In this document: in pieces, positions 1-17,382 of the stretch
How positions within the stretch are numbered: the stretch's first letter is position 1
How the letters are laid out: every line of letters begins with the position of its first letter
NCBI GenBank assembly: GCA_002726315.1
Contig: PBSS01000006.1
Span: forward strand, 6,025-41,924
Source: Acidimicrobiaceae bacterium
Lineage (GTDB): Bacteria > Actinomycetota > Acidimicrobiia > Acidimicrobiales > MedAcidi-G1
Reading direction: 5' to 3'
DNA: 35,900 bases
The notes under the pieces: generated by a model
What the model was told of the DNA's origin: nothing
Database searches by the model: none
The model's input: only the letters and a program-made list of their open reading frames with translations
Program-made: the position numbers and the translations under genes

Positions 1-128
1 CCGTCGGTGACCCGGTACTGAATGGTGATGGGCAAGTCCCCGGTGCCTTCGGGTACCCCAGGGTGTTGAGCAGCGATCTCATCGAGTGTCGCTATCCACT
101 CTGGTGAGAGGTAGGCGGCAGCGGTCAC
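1..128 (-). CDS. SCP2-like sterol/lipid carrier domain protein, N-terminal part (truncated by window edge)
   Basis: Only the first 42 codons lie in the window; the gene runs off the left edge. The N-terminus contains YLSPEWIATLDEIAA followed by a short loop and LPITIQYRVTDG. This is how small SCP2-type (sterol carrier protein 2) proteins of Actinobacteria typically begin: a helix with an LSPEW motif, then the first beta strand. Such proteins bind lipids or acyl-CoAs in the cytoplasm. The GTG start at 128 is chosen because an in-frame TAG lies just upstream (138-140 on the minus strand) and because a TAGGCT hexamer sits six bases before it, as at other leaderless starts here. It diverges from the swivel-domain gene with 41 bases between the two starts. 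The family call rests on a short stretch and could be wrong. Confidence 0.55.
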   Translation of the reverse strand, partial: MTAAAYLSPEWIATLDEIAAQHPGVPEGTGDLPITIQYRVTD

Positions 129-134
129 CAAAGC

Positions 135-169: not shown

Positions 170-523
170 GTGGTTCTAGTTGCAAGTGGAGAAAAGACCT
201 ATGGCTTCGAGCCGGTAAGTGGCATTTGGCGAAGGTTGGAGGGTCCCGAGGAGGTCCTAGAGCTCATGGATTCTGGTGCCGACGGGGTTGTAGCCGTCGT
301 GCGGGATGCAGGGGCAACATTCCTCTCACCGATCTTTGACGAACTAGCCGGTGTGGTCTGCACAGGAGGGACCATCCGAAGCCACATCGGGATTGTCAGC
401 AGGGAGTTCCGGGTACCTGGCATCGTGGGTGCCGAGATCCTCAACGAACCCGCCGACGACACCCATGTTGAACTGGACGGCACGGGTGAAGTTGGAATCG
501 TCCGGGTGGTTGGTGGGGGCTGA
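170..523 (+). CDS. Stand-alone PEP-utilizing enzyme mobile (phosphohistidine swivel) domain protein
   Basis: The protein is about 117 residues and consists essentially of one domain. Its core, CTGGTIRSHIGIVSREFRVP followed by GIVG, matches the GG-x-x-SH-x-x-I-x-x-RE-x-x-x-P signature of the swiveling domain in PEP synthase, pyruvate phosphate dikinase and enzyme I. The histidine of the SH pair is the residue that carries the phosphate in those enzymes. The ATP-grasp nucleotide-binding domain and the PEP/pyruvate barrel are both absent, so it should work with a partner, as in split systems such as phenylphosphate synthase. Its TGA overlaps the ATG of the next gene (TGATG), implying translational coupling. 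The start at 170 is inferred from the promoter position and from avoiding overlap with the divergent SCP2-like gene; an in-frame GTG at 86 is the alternative. The substrate is unknown. Confidence 0.7.
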   Translation: MVLVASGEKTYGFEPVSGIWRRLEGPEEVLELMDSGADGVVAVVRDAGATFLSPIFDELAGVVCTGGTIRSHIGIVSREFRVPGIVGAEILNEPADDTHVELDGTGEVGIVRVVGGG

Positions 524-1629
524 TGGCTGGTAGTCCACTTGAGCGGGTTAACAGTCTCTTGGAGGCGATAAACCCTGTATCAGCCCGGCTGGTTGCGGAG
601 CGAACCGGCTACTCGTCACAACTTGTTCCCGTGACCCCGTACGTCGCGGTGTCTGTAGTTGAGGCCTTCCACAGATATCCGGATGCGGTCAAAGCCATCA
701 CAGCGGCCATGTCTCCGGAGGAGATCGGGGAGGCCGCGCGGAAGCCGGGCTGTCAGGCCAACTCCGTGTTTCTGTGGGGAGTTGCGAACTTCTGGCTACT
801 CGGGCGCAATGTAATGAACATGGTCGATCCGTCCTTGGACTCAGTGGACCTAGCCCACACCGTGTTGGACTTCTGGGCCAGGGTGTCTCAGGCATACAGG
901 GGAGGGGGACAACTCCATGCAGCAGACGCGGGGAACCAGATAATGGTCCTGGAACATCCGGACCTCGAGGCTCTGGCGGAAGGAACTATTGGCCTTGACA
1001 GCCAGCGAAGGGAGAGTGTGAGACGCCTAAATGCCACACTCATCAACCACCTTTTCCTCCTCTATTTCGATACTAGAGTGGGTCACGGTGACACGGGGCC
1101 CTATCACTTGCCCGACGGTAGGACGATGCTCGTCAGGGACTACCACAGGCTTGGACCCAGCGACTTCTGGTGGTCTGGAGTCGCGGCAGACATGCCGTAT
1201 TCGAGCCTCACGGCAGCCCTCGTTCTGGACCCACAGGTCGATGTTGCCATCAATGACTTTGGTACCGCGATCACCAATCCCGAGAACTACCTTGAGAACT
1301 TGATTGGATTCGGACTGTTCACTACTGACAGCGGATCCCTCGTTCCTGTGTTGGAAGAAGAATTCCCCGTATTGGCCGATGCGGCGAGGCTCGCACAGCG
1401 GCAGCACTACAGGGATATTGTCGCAATGGACCGTGACGACAAGATCGCCTGTGGTGCATACGTGTACTTCACATTCCTGAGACCGTTTGCCGAGATTGCT
1501 GGGGTGGCCGACACTATTGACTGGAGTTGCCCGCGCGACACCCCTGATGACATCTATCAGATGGTTACCGTCGATGCGGATCCGCCGGAACGGAGTCCTG
1601 ACGACGTTCCTTACCCCCTCTACCAGTGA
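523..1629 (+). CDS. Hypothetical protein, 368 aa, coupled to the swivel-domain gene
   Basis: I do not recognise this family. The protein is soluble-looking, acidic and rich in aromatic residues, with no signal peptide, no convincing membrane span and no Walker, Rossmann or metal-binding signature. Local features are an FLWGVANFWLLGRNVMNMVD stretch, an HGDTGPYHLPDG segment near the middle, and a proline- and aspartate-rich C-terminal tail. Its ATG overlaps the stop codon of the upstream swivel-domain gene, so the two products are probably made together and may form a complex. The CrtC/AttH-like gene follows after 14 bases. It could supply the missing catalytic or substrate-binding part of a split phosphotransferase, but nothing in the sequence proves this. 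The coding assignment is strong because of its length and coupled start. Confidence 0.75.
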   Translation: MAGSPLERVNSLLEAINPVSARLVAERTGYSSQLVPVTPYVAVSVVEAFHRYPDAVKAITAAMSPEEIGEAARKPGCQANSVFLWGVANFWLLGRNVMNMVDPSLDSVDLAHTVLDFWARVSQAYRGGGQLHAADAGNQIMVLEHPDLEALAEGTIGLDSQRRESVRRLNATLINHLFLLYFDTRVGHGDTGPYHLPDGRTMLVRDYHRLGPSDFWWSGVAADMPYSSLTAALVLDPQVDVAINDFGTAITNPENYLENLIGFGLFTTDSGSLVPVLEEEFPVLADAARLAQRQHYRDIVAMDRDDKIACGAYVYFTFLRPFAEIAGVADTIDWSCPRDTPDDIYQMVTVDADPPERSPDDVPYPLYQ

Positions 1630-1643
1630 ATGTGTAGGACCAG

Positions 1644-2591
1644 ATGAGAGTCCCGGACGGAGTAGACGAGTATCGCCACGATCCCACCCCTGACCTGTTG
1701 TGGAACGAGTCGTATTATCTCGACTGGTTTAATGCCGAGGGTAAGAGTGGTGGGTATGTTCGCTTGGGCCTCTATCCGAACCTGGGTGTTTCATGGTTCT
1801 GGTGCTGCTTAGTGGGAGAAGGCCAACCAGTTGTCCGCGTTATCAACCATCAGGTACCCCTGCCAGAAGAATCGGGGTTGAAGGTTCGGTCTCCGGGCCT
1901 AAGGGCCGAGATGGTCGTGGAAAAGCCCCTGGCACGCTTCAGCGTCGGTGTTGACGCAGATGGCATTGCTGTAGACAATCCGGCTGATGCTTACGACGGT
2001 GGTTCCACCGGTATCCATGGAAACAAGGTTGCGGTGGGTGTTGACCTCATCTGGCGAACTGACGGTCCAGTAGACCCACCTGAGGGAGCTGATCCGTGGG
2101 CGTTCTACTACGGGTTGTCCACCCGTTACGAGGTGCCGTGCCGAGTAACCGGTGAGGTGATGGTTGGTGATCGGCATTCAAGGATTGATGGATGGGGTCA
2201 ACGGGATCACTCTTGGGCCGTTCGTGACTGGTGGACCGATGGTTGGATCTGGTTTTCCGGACGACTGGACGATGGTGAGCGCTTCCACGCAGTCGCTGCT
2301 GTGGGTCGGGAAGGGGGTATCGGTTACTGGTCGACTCCTGCAGGGCTAATGGGAACTTACAAGGTGACATCGAGACCGGAGTCGGGACCGGACGGCATCC
2401 CTACTAGCGGGAAGGTGACCCTTGGTGAGGTGACATTTGAGTTGAGACCTGTGGGTTGGGCGCCAGTACTGCTTGTCAACCCCGATGACGGTTGTGAGTC
2501 GAGGCTTCCGCGTGGCCTCATGGCGGTTACGACCGATGATGGTCGCAGGGGCCATGCCTGGGTGGAGTACAACCAGCCACAGGTTGGCTGA
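1644..2591 (+). CDS. CrtC/AttH-like lipocalin-type protein (DUF7064-like)
   Basis: The protein is 315 residues, beta-rich and has no signal peptide. The segment DGWGQRDHSWAVRDWW (about residues 183-198) is the hallmark of a family resembling hydroxyneurosporene hydratase CrtC and AttH, whose fold is a tandem lipocalin-like barrel that holds hydrophobic ligands. Members are common in Actinobacteria beside acyl-CoA, terpenoid or steroid genes; most have no proven activity. Further aromatic motifs (WIWFSGRL, GYWSTP) fit a ligand-lining role. An AGGA sequence lies five bases before the ATG, and the gene follows the 368-aa gene by 14 bases, so it is probably the third cistron of the swivel-domain operon. 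It ends one base from the end of the convergent popT gene. A ligand for the operon could be a terpenoid or sterol, which is only inference. Confidence 0.6.
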   Translation: MRVPDGVDEYRHDPTPDLLWNESYYLDWFNAEGKSGGYVRLGLYPNLGVSWFWCCLVGEGQPVVRVINHQVPLPEESGLKVRSPGLRAEMVVEKPLARFSVGVDADGIAVDNPADAYDGGSTGIHGNKVAVGVDLIWRTDGPVDPPEGADPWAFYYGLSTRYEVPCRVTGEVMVGDRHSRIDGWGQRDHSWAVRDWWTDGWIWFSGRLDDGERFHAVAAVGREGGIGYWSTPAGLMGTYKVTSRPESGPDGIPTSGKVTLGEVTFELRPVGWAPVLLVNPDDGCESRLPRGLMAVTTDDGRRGHAWVEYNQPQVG

Positions 2592-2592
2592 C

Positions 2593-3504
2593 TCAGGATC
2601 GGCGACGGGTTAGGGCGTCAAGGCCGAGTACTACAATCATCGCTGCGATTGCGAGCAGCAGGGGCACAAGTGACTCCGAAATGGTCGGCCAGTCAAGGAC
2701 TGCACCCGGGGCTGTCTTAGACCCATTCCTGCCTATCACACCGACACCATTGGGCCATGGCCAGAGAACCCTTAGAGAGCCAAGCATCAGTCCGATCAGG
2801 GCAGCTAGAACGAGGTCGTGGTGGTGCTCCAGGAGGCGTTTAAGCAGGGTTGAGAACAGAGCAAGGCCGACGACGGCACCGAGGCCAAATAGGGCTAGGT
2901 CGCTCAGCACTCTTTCATCGACTGCTTCTAGAGCGTGGTTGTACATTCCGAGCATCAACATGATGAAGGCACCCGAAATTCCGGGAAGGATCATTGCGCA
3001 AATGGCGATCGCTCCGGACGCGAACAGGACAAGAGCCGACGGATTCGCTACCGGGCCGGCCTGCCAGCCCAGGGCCATGAAAAGGACGACAGCGACTAGG
3101 GAAGTCAGGCCCACCTGACCACGAGTCCAGGATTTGGGTAGCCGCGCAGTGATCAAGATCGAGGCCAGAACAAGTCCAAGGAAAAGTCCGGCCATGGGCT
3201 CCGGATGGTCGATGAGGCTGGCTTCGATTGGTCCTGCAAGTGCCATCACCGCTATGACCACACCGGCCAGCAAGGAGAAAAGAAAAGTCCATTCGATGGC
3301 CCTTGCATAGGTCAACGAGCCGCGAAGGTCGTACCGGAGAAGAAGGCCCAGTGACTTTGCTCCGTTGCTGACCGAACTGATGAGGCGTTCGTAGATACCG
3401 AGCAGGAGGGCAATCGTCCCACCCGACACTCCCGGGACCACATCTGCTGCGCCCATGCACATACCGCGGAACAGGTGTACCGCCATGCGGCGGCATCTGG
3501 TCAC
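2593..3504 (-). CDS. popT: DUF368 family polyprenyl-phosphate transporter (PopT-like)
   Basis: The protein is 303 residues and polytopic, with about eight to nine hydrophobic spans. It carries the DUF368 hallmark GAADVVPGVSGGT at residues 18-30 and a second, related PGISG at 174-178, consistent with the internal repeat of the family. DUF368 proteins have been linked to recycling undecaprenyl phosphate across the cytoplasmic membrane for cell-wall synthesis, with the best evidence at alkaline pH or under sodium stress. The C-terminus ends in basic residues (LTRRRS). The GTG start overlaps the stop of the upstream thioesterase gene (GTGA), so the pair is translationally coupled; an ATG six codons further in is an alternative start. 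The neighbouring thioesterase has no obvious link to wall synthesis. Confidence 0.85.
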   Translation of the reverse strand: MTRCRRMAVHLFRGMCMGAADVVPGVSGGTIALLLGIYERLISSVSNGAKSLGLLLRYDLRGSLTYARAIEWTFLFSLLAGVVIAVMALAGPIEASLIDHPEPMAGLFLGLVLASILITARLPKSWTRGQVGLTSLVAVVLFMALGWQAGPVANPSALVLFASGAIAICAMILPGISGAFIMLMLGMYNHALEAVDERVLSDLALFGLGAVVGLALFSTLLKRLLEHHHDLVLAALIGLMLGSLRVLWPWPNGVGVIGRNGSKTAPGAVLDWPTISESLVPLLLAIAAMIVVLGLDALTRRRS

Positions 3505-13890: not shown

Positions 13891-14679
13891 ATGAAGGTGC
13901 TCGTCACAAACGACGACGGCATATCCTCACCGGGCTTGGCCGCTCTGGCTGCAATGGTCGTCGATGCTGGAATGAACCCGGTCGTGGCGGCTCCAGCCCA
14001 GGACCACAGTGGTGCTGCAGCGGCCCTAGGACCTTTGGCTGATCCTTCCAGAGTTGTCGTGGACCAGGTGGCAATAGGCAGTCTGACTGCCCATTCGGTG
14101 CATGCTCCCACGGCACTGATCGTCATGTTGTCAATGCTCGGAGGGTTTGGAGAGCCACCGGACTTGGTGTTGTCTGGGATCAACAATGGACCCAACACAG
14201 GCCGTTCTACGCTCCATTCAGCAACCGTTGCAGCTGTGCTGGTGGGTGGCTACTTCGGTCGGTCTGGTCTGGCAGTAAGCCAAGTTGTAGGAGGTCCTCA
14301 GCTCTGGTCAACGGCTACGAGAGCGGCTGAGCCATTGTTGGCATGGCTGCGAGATGCGCCCTCACCAACGTTGTTGAACCTCAACGTTCCCAATACCGGT
14401 CACGATGAGATAAGGGGTCTGAGACAGGCAGCACTGGCAGACGTGGGTGGGGTTCAGACCGTGATCGTTGGTCGCGACGAGGGGGGGATAGACATCGACC
14501 TGATGAGCACGACAGACTCCCTTCCCCCCAATGTCGATTCTGCCCTACTCCGAGATGGTTATGCGACGGTCAGCGCTATGGCGCCACCTACCGCCATCGA
14601 TCTTGAACTTCCTACAGAGCACTGGTGGATCGCTTCAAGCGGGTCTGAAGCCGGATCGAAGCGGATCCCAACAGCCTGA
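13891..14679 (+). CDS. surE: SurE-like 5'/3'-nucleotidase
   Basis: The protein is 262 residues. The N-terminus MKVLVTNDDGISSPG holds the metal-binding D8 and D9, S40 lies in QDHSG, and N98 lies in LSGINNGPNTG. SurE enzymes release phosphate from nucleoside monophosphates and similar phosphomonoesters using a divalent metal. Placed 16 bases after phoU, in what appears to be a phosphate operon, it may recover phosphate from nucleotides. The usual SGTV segment after the metal site reads HSATV here. The start ATG 13891 has GGTGGAG five bases upstream; the in-frame GTG at 13885 falls within that sequence. Confidence 0.88.
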   Translation: MKVLVTNDDGISSPGLAALAAMVVDAGMNPVVAAPAQDHSGAAAALGPLADPSRVVVDQVAIGSLTAHSVHAPTALIVMLSMLGGFGEPPDLVLSGINNGPNTGRSTLHSATVAAVLVGGYFGRSGLAVSQVVGGPQLWSTATRAAEPLLAWLRDAPSPTLLNLNVPNTGHDEIRGLRQAALADVGGVQTVIVGRDEGGIDIDLMSTTDSLPPNVDSALLRDGYATVSAMAPPTAIDLELPTEHWWIASSGSEAGSKRIPTA

Positions 14680-14746
14680 ACTAATCACCACTGTCAGGAA
14701 TTTAGATTACAACCACGAACTTGGGCGGCCCTGAGGGTAGGTCCCG

Positions 14747-14752
14747 TAGCCT
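14747..14752 (+). promoter_or_regulatory. Leaderless-type -10 element for the MFS gene
   Basis: TAGCCT, six bases before the GTG at 14759. No Shine-Dalgarno sequence is present. Confidence 0.45.
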
Positions 14753-14758
14753 TAGAAC

Positions 14759-16111
14759 GTGGACACAGAGGATCTCTCCACACCTCGCTCTGTAGCTAGC
14801 CCGTTTACAAGGCTGGCTCGTACCCACGCGTTGGGGGCGATGTCAGACGCCATGATCGCTGTTGCTCTAGCAGGCTCAATCTTCTTTTCCATTGACCCTG
14901 ACGCAGCGCGCTGGAGAGTCGGCCTATACCTGGTGCTCACTATTGCTCCATTTGCTGTTGTCACTCCACTGATCGGCCCTCTAGTGGATCGGATTCGTGG
15001 TGGCCGTAGGGGGATGATCCTGTTTACGGTGCTTGGTCGAGCGACGCTCGCATACCTCATGGCAAGGCACATTGATGGCCTACTCCTGTTTCCCGAGGCA
15101 TTCGGTTTCCTGGTGCTACAGAAGGGTTATTCGGTGGCCAAGAGTGCGGTCGTTCCCAAGCTCGTGAGGTCTGACTTGGAATTGGTCGAAGCCAACTCAA
15201 AGTTGGCGTTGCTGAGCGCCATCAGTGGCATGGTTGGTGCCGGCATCGGTGGTCTGGCGACGCTCGGTGCGTCTTCGTGGGCTGCAAACGCAGCGCTGGT
15301 TGGGTTTGTGGTCACGGCTTTGTTCGCCGTCCAATTGCCGCGTATAAGGGTGGCGGATCAGCCAGTTACGGCAGGCGAGCGAGCCGAGTTGCGACAGGCC
15401 GGGATCCTCCTAGCTGCTTCGGCGATGGCGATACTGCGCGCAGCGGTAGGTTTTATGACGTTTCTCCTGGCTTTCGAGTTCAGGGGTGGTGATGAGGGCC
15501 TCAGCCTGGACGGTCCCGGGAGGGCTGTAGGAGCGGCGGTCGGTGTAGCGCGTGGGCAGGACATCTTGGGGAGTCCCGGCGCTCCTGTCTGGCACTTCGG
15601 AGTGGTATTGGTGTGTGCCGGCTCGGGAGTACTCTTCGGTGCGTGGTTTGCACCGCGCCTTCGGCGGACTGCCGGTGAGGAGCGAATTATTACCGGGGTT
15701 CTCGTGGCGGCGATGCTGGGCGGGGTGTTGGCCAGTTGGCTGGGCTCACTTCATGGTGCGATGGTCCTGGCTGTAGTGGTGGCGGGTTCGTCAGCTGCAG
15801 CCAAGTTGGCGTTTGACTCGTTGGTCCAACGTGATGCACCCGACGCCAACCACGGTCGTTCGTTCAGCAGGTTTGAGGGTCGATTCCAACTGAGTTGGGC
15901 TGTGGGCGCCTTCGTGGCAGTCGTGGCTCCACTGCCGGTAGAACTCGGTTACGGGCTTGTAGCCGTGGGCACCGGATTTGCTCTTGTCTGGTACTTGGCG
16001 GGGTCACGGGCAGCTGGCAGGGTGGACACACCAATTGACCCTGAACGTCCCGATGGCCAGCTCGGCTTTTGGAACCGGGAGAGTGGCGACCAGCCTCCCA
16101 CGACCGCCTAG
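14759..16111 (+). CDS. MFS-type membrane transporter
   Basis: The protein is 450 residues with about ten to twelve hydrophobic spans. The loop LVDRIRGGRRGMI, between early spans, matches the D-R-x-G-R-R element of the major facilitator superfamily. A second cytoplasmic-looking loop has APRLRRTAGEERI, and the C-terminus is hydrophilic and proline-rich. It resembles actinobacterial MFS proteins of unknown substrate; drug or metabolite efflux would be a guess. The GTG start follows a TAGCCT hexamer by six bases. Its end overlaps the end of the convergent zincin gene by four bases. Confidence 0.75.
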   Translation: MDTEDLSTPRSVASPFTRLARTHALGAMSDAMIAVALAGSIFFSIDPDAARWRVGLYLVLTIAPFAVVTPLIGPLVDRIRGGRRGMILFTVLGRATLAYLMARHIDGLLLFPEAFGFLVLQKGYSVAKSAVVPKLVRSDLELVEANSKLALLSAISGMVGAGIGGLATLGASSWAANAALVGFVVTALFAVQLPRIRVADQPVTAGERAELRQAGILLAASAMAILRAAVGFMTFLLAFEFRGGDEGLSLDGPGRAVGAAVGVARGQDILGSPGAPVWHFGVVLVCAGSGVLFGAWFAPRLRRTAGEERIITGVLVAAMLGGVLASWLGSLHGAMVLAVVVAGSSAAAKLAFDSLVQRDAPDANHGRSFSRFEGRFQLSWAVGAFVAVVAPLPVELGYGLVAVGTGFALVWYLAGSRAAGRVDTPIDPERPDGQLGFWNRESGDQPPTTA

Positions 16112-17382
16112 GCCCCTAGCGTCTCCAGGCTGTCGGGGTCATCGTCTAGGTCTATCCGGGCCAGCCACAGGCCTGGAGCATCAACTTCATTTGGTGTGGG
16201 AAGGTGGGCCTTTTCTGTCCAGAGTCGCTTCAGGGCCTCAGGACTGGCCCGTTCGACCACCCCGGATATGAAGTTGTTGCCACGGTCGATCTGTTTCTGG
16301 GTCAGGTTCAGGCCCAGGATACGTTCAACGAAACGATCGGCTCCGCTGGTCTCAACCCGCCGTCGCCGCAGTGCCTCTGTGACCATCGGATAGGTCGAAA
16401 TCAGGCGACTGCCGATCTCATCCATCACGTGGTCCACGTAGCCGATGAGGACAGCAACAAGTGATTCGATCCTCGGTAACAGGGCCTCCTGGTCTGGTGA
16501 TCTGACCGCTCCGAGGAGCATTTCAGGGTCCAGTATTTGCTGTAGCTGGGTGATGGAATCAGGTCCAGCCATGAGGTCGATTTCACCCAGATGTTGTTGA
16601 AGTTCTGTGGGGTCGTTGTGGAATGCACCGGCGTGGCGGATCAGGAGATCTGTGAGGGAGTCACCAACATGGGGGACACTGAGCACACTGTGGTGGGTTA
16701 GTTCATGCAGACAGACCCAGAGCCGTAAGTCGGCGGCCGGGATACTCCAGTCGGTGGCAAAGGCCTCAATGCTGGGGACGATCAACATGACACGGTCAGC
16801 ATCCGGTGAGGTCGGGTCCCCGGGGATTGGGAGGTCGTAGCTGCCGAGGCTTCGGGAGCCGAGGCGACCGACCATCGTGCCCGTCGTCAGGCTTGACATT
16901 AGTGGGGCGATCGCTTTCACCAGGCTGGATATCCATGCAGACATAGGATCGTTTCCAACTTCAGCCTCAGGTTCGTGATGAGTGTCAGGGGTGGCATGGA
17001 GGGATCCGGATACCCGTTTGAGGAGCGGTTGGAGCGTGTCGACCATGCGGGCTGTCCAGACCGCCTTGGTGACAGGTTCGATCGTGACGGATCCCTTCCT
17101 GCCGGCTGGGAGCCCGGTTCGGTCGGCGACGTGGAGCTCTGCGACCCGTGCGAGGGATTCGTATTCCATGCGGACAGTCGGGTCCACGTTTGGTTCACTT
17201 TCACCACCAGTCGCAATGGTCACTGCTAGCTGGCGTGTCGCAGACGCGTCCGTTCCTTGGCTCTTCATTGCATGAAGAACTCCTTCGAACATGTCACCGA
17301 AGGAGCCACCGAAGACCTGGCCCATGACGTCATCGATGGAGGGATGCTCATCATCAGACTCGGGCATCTCAGGCAAGTCCAT
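16108..17382 (-). CDS. Zincin-like metallohydrolase, DUF2342 family
   Basis: The protein is about 424 residues. HELTHH is at about 226-231 of the preferred product; the two histidines and glutamate of HExxH would bind zinc and catalyse. The order of segments (GTMVGRLGSRSLGSYDLPIP, then IVPSIEAFATDWSIPAADLRLWVCLHELTHH) is characteristic of the actinobacterial DUF2342 family, often labelled 'coenzyme F420 biosynthesis-associated'. No activity is well established. The N-terminus is acidic. I prefer ATG 17382 because TACGAT lies six bases upstream; an in-frame ATG at 17436 would add 18 residues. In mycobacteria the homolog lies beside the PDZ-Lon and UPF0182 genes, which are about 3 kb away here. 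Confidence 0.88.
   Translation of the reverse strand: MDLPEMPESDDEHPSIDDVMGQVFGGSFGDMFEGVLHAMKSQGTDASATRQLAVTIATGGESEPNVDPTVRMEYESLARVAELHVADRTGLPAGRKGSVTIEPVTKAVWTARMVDTLQPLLKRVSGSLHATPDTHHEPEAEVGNDPMSAWISSLVKAIAPLMSSLTTGTMVGRLGSRSLGSYDLPIPGDPTSPDADRVMLIVPSIEAFATDWSIPAADLRLWVCLHELTHHSVLSVPHVGDSLTDLLIRHAGAFHNDPTELQQHLGEIDLMAGPDSITQLQQILDPEMLLGAVRSPDQEALLPRIESLVAVLIGYVDHVMDEIGSRLISTYPMVTEALRRRRVETSGADRFVERILGLNLTQKQIDRGNNFISGVVERASPEALKRLWTEKAHLPTPNEVDAPGLWLARIDLDDDPDSLETLGA

Follow-up and report, generated by a model that had tools for sequence, protein, structure and literature searches.

What can a phosphohistidine swivel do when it is encoded as a protein of its own, apart from any ATP-grasp or PEP-binding domain? 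The question is raised by three ORFs at the start of a 35,900-nucleotide stretch of DNA (the window) from an Acidimicrobiaceae bacterium (Table 1). The swivel gene overlaps the gene for a 368-residue protein (P368), whose ATG sits within the swivel stop codon, and after a gap of 14 nt an ORF with DUF7065 and DUF7064 domains follows; no ATP-grasp or PEP-binding gene adjoins the three. An earlier note, made from the sequence alone, had described a swivel that keeps its His and has no ATP-grasp or PEP-binding domain, overlaps an unrecognised gene and faces a divergent SCP2-like gene. This description was borne out by the PF00391 match and our reading of the swivel sequence, by the TGATG overlap and lack of Pfam or NCBIfam matches for P368, and by the PF02036 match of the SCP2 gene. 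The latter starts at position 131, and its remainder lies beyond the window. The swivel ORF starts with GTG at 170; the ORF tool placed the start at 86, homologues start at about 170, and the latter position was therefore used. Compared with the closest relative, all three ORFs show purifying selection, with dN/dS of 0.08-0.10. Convergent with the DUF7064/7065 gene lies an undecaprenyl-phosphate translocase-like gene (PF04018; window 2593-3504, minus strand).

Table 1. Features of the locus and of related proteins in other genomes (G and L numbers are our own handles).
Feature	Genome or sequence	Position	Strand	Remarks
SCP2 sterol-carrier-like gene, 5' part	Window	1..131	-	PF02036 E = 1.2e-8 for the complete gene (L031:5763-6155)
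Free-standing phosphohistidine swivel protein, 117 aa	Window	170..523	+	PF00391 E = 7.8e-9
Codon of predicted phospho-accepting His, residue 72	Window	383..385	+	Read from sequence
TGATG stop/start overlap, swivel/P368	Window	521..525	+	Read from sequence
P368, 368 aa, proposed acceptor-side subunit	Window	523..1629	+	No recognised family or fold
DUF7065 + DUF7064 protein, 315 aa	Window	1644..2591	+	DUF7065 61.5 bits (cut-off 27), DUF7064 63.2 bits (cut-off 24.7)
Half-PPDK	G034	L142:3687-5216		
Half-PPDK	G024	L144:3187-4737		
Swivel-P368 fusion, 540 aa	G636			Ala/Pro-rich linker
Swivel-P368 fusion, 542 aa	R. oxybenzonivorans			
Swivel-P368 fusion, 793 aa	R. opacus B4			Winged-helix-like tail, weak TrmB match
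Swivel-P368 fusion	R. pyridinivorans			

The swivel scores 35.5 bits with PF00391, above the gathering cut-off of 23.1, and its profile matches the swivels of PEP synthase, RPH and EI in the PDB. In the window its His lies in the motif TGGTIRSHIGIVSREF. This His, on whose conservation in orthologs the earlier note had made its proposal depend, is kept in all 55 swivels compared. The S-H pair and the flanking I and R are invariant among these very diverged sequences, and the canonical GG of the His loop has its second Gly replaced, mostly by Thr or Ala. The window swivel itself was not modelled; that of a natural fusion to P368 (G636, see below) is matched by Foldseek to PPDK and RPH swivels with a probability of 1.00.

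P368 is of a different kind. None of 16 diverse members matched a Pfam family, NCBIfam gave chance-level matches only, to one member, and profile searches of the PDB found no convincing sequence relative. A match of one member to GvpA (E 0.001) was taken as chance. An AlphaFold model of P368 (pLDDT 90.2, pTM 0.91) gave nothing better than E = 1.5 in a Foldseek search of the PDB and a best Z of 3.6 with VIA-align. With no PDB match at E < 1, assignment to a known fold was rejected, a weak or missing match being no proof of a new fold. Similarly, profile comparison with six RPH/RedH-like acceptor regions gave a probability of 0.2%, which, with the fold searches matchless, does not exclude homology. 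Neither a DNA-binding domain nor a known sensor domain was seen in P368. Residues G94, R95, F178, R185, G192, P193, P253 and Y315 are invariant across the deep family and R205 is nearly so; judging from this sequence conservation, the arginines would suit a phosphoryl-transfer site. In the open-licence literature we found no paper describing a free-standing swivel together with a protein like P368. An anti-phage role for the locus was rejected, as PADLOC gave no match.

The swivel and P368 together are a real and widespread module. In a sample of 345 genomes from the order of the window's organism, P368 was found in 55 (23 of 182 genera), and in a phylum-wide sample of 396 genomes it was found in 6; the named contigs in which relatives turned up belong to MAGs that bear the labels Candidatus Microthrix, Acidimicrobiia, Acidimicrobiales or Acidimicrobiaceae. 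Of 57 P368 genes that we inspected, in Acidimicrobiales, in other Actinomycetota and on plasmids of proteobacteria, 55 have a swivel within 3 kb, either as a separate gene or fused. One exception (L137) sits 0.5 kb from a contig end, and in its congeners the swivel is encoded about 1.1-1.2 kb upstream. For the second exception, on Novosphingobium pSA1, the swivel gene is part of the same cluster at a distance of about 8 kb. A search of 72,556 plasmids gave nine records with P368, and exactly these nine carry this swivel subfamily. Moreover, the two proteins are naturally fused in at least four genomes, with the swivel N-terminal (Table 1).

The fusion from G636 also served for predicting a complex of the two proteins, a step that the earlier note had proposed. 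Its AlphaFold model has a mean pLDDT of 89.0, a pTM of 0.88 and a 38-residue low-confidence linker. By a simple estimate, pTM would be about 0.61-0.75 with the swivel unplaced relative to P368 and 0.79-0.91 with it placed; the two domains thus seem to be placed together confidently, and the model, made from a fusion with mostly unpaired rows, seems to set the swivel against P368. In searches with this fusion, the confident matches extended over about 110-130 columns and were to swivels, namely those of PPDK, RPH and related proteins. The view of the earlier note that the two proteins form a unit is upheld by the conserved pairing, the fusions and the two-domain model, and its core idea, that the swivel system is split, is strongly supported by the comparisons.

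A split system needs a phosphate donor, and here lineages differ. On Rhodococcus plasmids and in Paraburkholderia, Novosphingobium and genomes G194, G526, G550 and G540, a PPDK-like protein with an ATP-grasp domain and a swivel of its own is encoded beside the pair. The PPDK-like protein of these remote operons is a truncated PPDK, and the PEP-binding domain had no Pfam match in the three scanned. In most of the remote operons, the PPDK-like gene has as its neighbour a gene for a winged-helix-like protein of about 200 aa. In the window's family, we found neither of the two next to swivel and P368. The split dikinase of the earlier note therefore stands in part: an ATP-grasp protein of PPDK type joins the operon in remote relatives, whereas no dedicated ATP-grasp partner was found in the window's lineage. 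Elsewhere in the window's own genome, where the note had suggested looking for an ATP-grasp or PEP-synthase gene, the only PPDK_N (ATP-grasp) match lies at a contig end far from the locus, and a dedicated partner was rejected. No PEP-binding match was found in that genome; together with the PPDK_N fragment at a contig end, this would fit a PPDK gene broken by incomplete assembly.

We found no PPDK_N match in 13 high-completeness P368 carriers (G034, G031, G027, G009, G010, G015, G023, G024, G750, G743, G659, G583 and G536), of which G583 is assembled as one contig of about 3.6 Mb. A PEP-binding domain is present in all 13, in open frames of about 517-625 aa, and each thus retains a conceivable PEP-dependent donor. 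Both frames examined in full (L142 and L144) encode a swivel and a PEP-binding domain without ATP-grasp, a "half-PPDK" (Table 1). Similar PEP-binding frames occur in G583, G659, G009, G007 and G012; the last two genomes are without P368, and the half-PPDK was therefore rejected as a dedicated partner. The donor is most likely the operon's own PPDK-like ATP-grasp and swivel protein in the remote relatives; in the window's lineage it is likely to be a housekeeping PPDK or the half-PPDK. As a separate observation, ORFs of 560-640 aa resembling RPH/RedH, with a C-terminal swivel and no ATP-grasp, are present at L140, L141, L143 and L146 (G034, G024 and the window's own genome, G000). Some of them are in genomes without PPDK_N and are likewise without an obvious donor.

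Neighbouring genes offer hints at the acceptor. An SCP2 gene is found within 3 kb of P368 at 28 of the 57 loci, in several families of the order. A DUF7064/7065 gene lies within 3 kb of 29 of the 57, as detected with a narrow profile built on the window's type, and Methylibium, Paraburkholderia, G526 and G550 have further, diverged copies next to the pair. In G193 (L188) a DUF7064/7065-like gene lies elsewhere in the genome, with neither swivel nor P368 next to it, among flanking genes that, read by eye, resemble those of the window. Thus, of the three-gene order whose conservation the earlier note had proposed to examine, the swivel-P368 part holds, whereas the DUF7064/7065 gene has no more than a loose tie to these two. 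An association of DUF7064/7065 proteins with aminoglycoside-type kinases is suggested by the R. opacus B4 locus and by Rv3168/Rv3169. As a marker of such kinases the protein was rejected: crude ORF reading, with no family search, showed no such neighbour at its second copies in relatives, and an AMP-ligase is the only neighbour confirmed.

Further neighbours of the pair in relatives are P450, alcohol and aldehyde dehydrogenases and AMP-ligases. In one Acidimicrobiales genus, thiolase-like and DUF35-like genes were read by eye near the pair, and the Novosphingobium cluster has a biotin carboxylase set and a thiolase. In the Hpe pathway, a two-component kinase phosphorylates a phenol, and biotin-dependent carboxylation follows (PMC9618137). 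The Novosphingobium carboxylase recalls this pathway, and SCP2 and the catabolic neighbours make a hydrophobic organic molecule a plausible acceptor.

We lean towards the view that the swivel and P368 are the two subunits of a split phosphotransferase whose donor acts in trans. The donor protein would phosphorylate the swivel His, and the phospho-swivel would then dock on P368, which would bind the organic acceptor and receive the transfer of phosphate onto it. Known swivel enzymes have a domain that binds rifampin or pyruvate; P368 would stand in for it, with no detectable sequence similarity to it and no recognised fold, and SCP2 and the DUF7064/7065 protein may deliver or process the hydrophobic acceptor. 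Consistent with this are the pairing, the identical plasmid sets, the invariant His, the fusions and the pTM of the fusion model, the swivel fold and the remote PPDK-like genes. The Novosphingobium biotin carboxylase set also fits, the Hpe pathway being one in which a split kinase carries out the step before carboxylation. A more specific form, in which the swivel would be a mobile, separate phosphohistidine carrier (as HPr is in the PTS) serving an acceptor enzyme of new fold and charged by interchangeable donors (ATP via the PPDK-like protein, PEP via the half-PPDK), is tentative and less likely than not.

Several facts sit uneasily with a split phosphotransferase, and some of them point to other roles. 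In the window's lineage the pair has no linked donor gene, and some genomes without P368 have the half-PPDK as well. The operon PPDK-like proteins already own a swivel, and why a second should be needed is a fair question. The winged-helix-like protein tied to the module in relatives would fit regulation too: in a phospho-relay, the PPDK-like protein or half-PPDK would report ATP or PEP status through the swivel, with P368 as sensor or effector. Such a relay agrees with the place of the winged-helix-like gene in most remote operons and with the tail of the R. opacus B4 fusion, and VadK, a PPDK-derived mycobacterial kinase, is reported as regulatory (PMC12636432). However, the winged-helix-like gene is missing beside the pair in the window's family, catabolic enzymes neighbour the pair in several taxa, and P368 shows no domain for DNA binding or known sensing, all of which make a relay unlikely.

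The altered Gly of the His loop, which also counts against a phosphotransferase, and the 13 carriers without a PPDK ATP-grasp match would be accounted for if the swivel were no longer a phosphocarrier and had become a structural or binding subunit of a P368 with some other activity. This is the least probable of the readings, and we consider it very doubtful: the S-H pair with its flanking I and R has stayed invariant through strong divergence, PPDK-type proteins recur in the remote operons, and the long disordered linker of the fusion is what would be expected of a moving domain.

The novelty of a split phosphotransferase would be narrower than the earlier note supposed when it called a split dikinase a new type of system, since the two-component small-molecule dikinases HpeHI, CreHI and PpsAB are already known (PMC12167813). 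By mechanism, they and RPH are the nearest systems (PMC12167813). Shared with the dikinases are the catabolic setting and, as we infer it here, split swivel-based phosphotransfer to a small molecule; the remote relatives add an ATP-grasp protein in the operon and, in Novosphingobium, the biotin carboxylase set. In the dikinases, however, the acceptor component ends in the swivel at its C terminus, and its acceptor domain resembles that of RPH (PMC12167813). Here, by contrast, the swivel is encoded on its own or fused at the N terminus, and P368 has no detectable similarity to that domain. In the HpeHI type a separate ATP-grasp component is encoded alongside the swivel component; the remote relatives have such a gene, whereas none lies beside the genes of the window.

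The swivels of RPH and RedH/PigC-like proteins are homologous to that of the window; RPH unites ATP-grasp, acceptor and swivel in one chain, of which only the swivel is matched here. PPDK, PEP synthase and PTS enzyme I also have a homologous swivel with a phospho-His loop, but the window genes have no ATP-grasp or PEP-binding domain, within or beside them. VadK (Rv1127c) resembles the remote operon proteins, which also look PPDK-derived and have no Pfam PEP-binding match; it is reported to act on the methylcitrate cycle, and the abstract mentions no swivel-P368 pair (PMC12636432).

If a split phosphotransferase is the right reading, the swivel phosphotransferases would gain with P368 a family of acceptor-side enzymes that has not been described before. 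It would also account for genes annotated as "PEP-utilizing enzyme" or "hypothetical protein" on Rhodococcus and Methylibium plasmids; in Paraburkholderia and Novosphingobium the swivel and P368 genes are present but unannotated. A question raised by it is how the swivel gets charged where the PPDK ATP-grasp domain seems to be lost.

On plasmid RPME01 of Methylibium petroleiphilum PM1 (L084:6426-10217 and 14329-17194), a few kb separate the swivel, P368 and DUF7064/7065 genes from genes for B12-binding, AMP-ligase, MeaB and mutase proteins, which we take to be those of the tert-butyl alcohol pathway; a link to tertiary-alcohol metabolism is conceivable. A protein of about 152 aa, whose G194 copy had no Pfam match, is encoded between P368 and the swivel both there (L084:9285-9746) and in G194 (L076:5971-6429), and the two copies are 76% identical.
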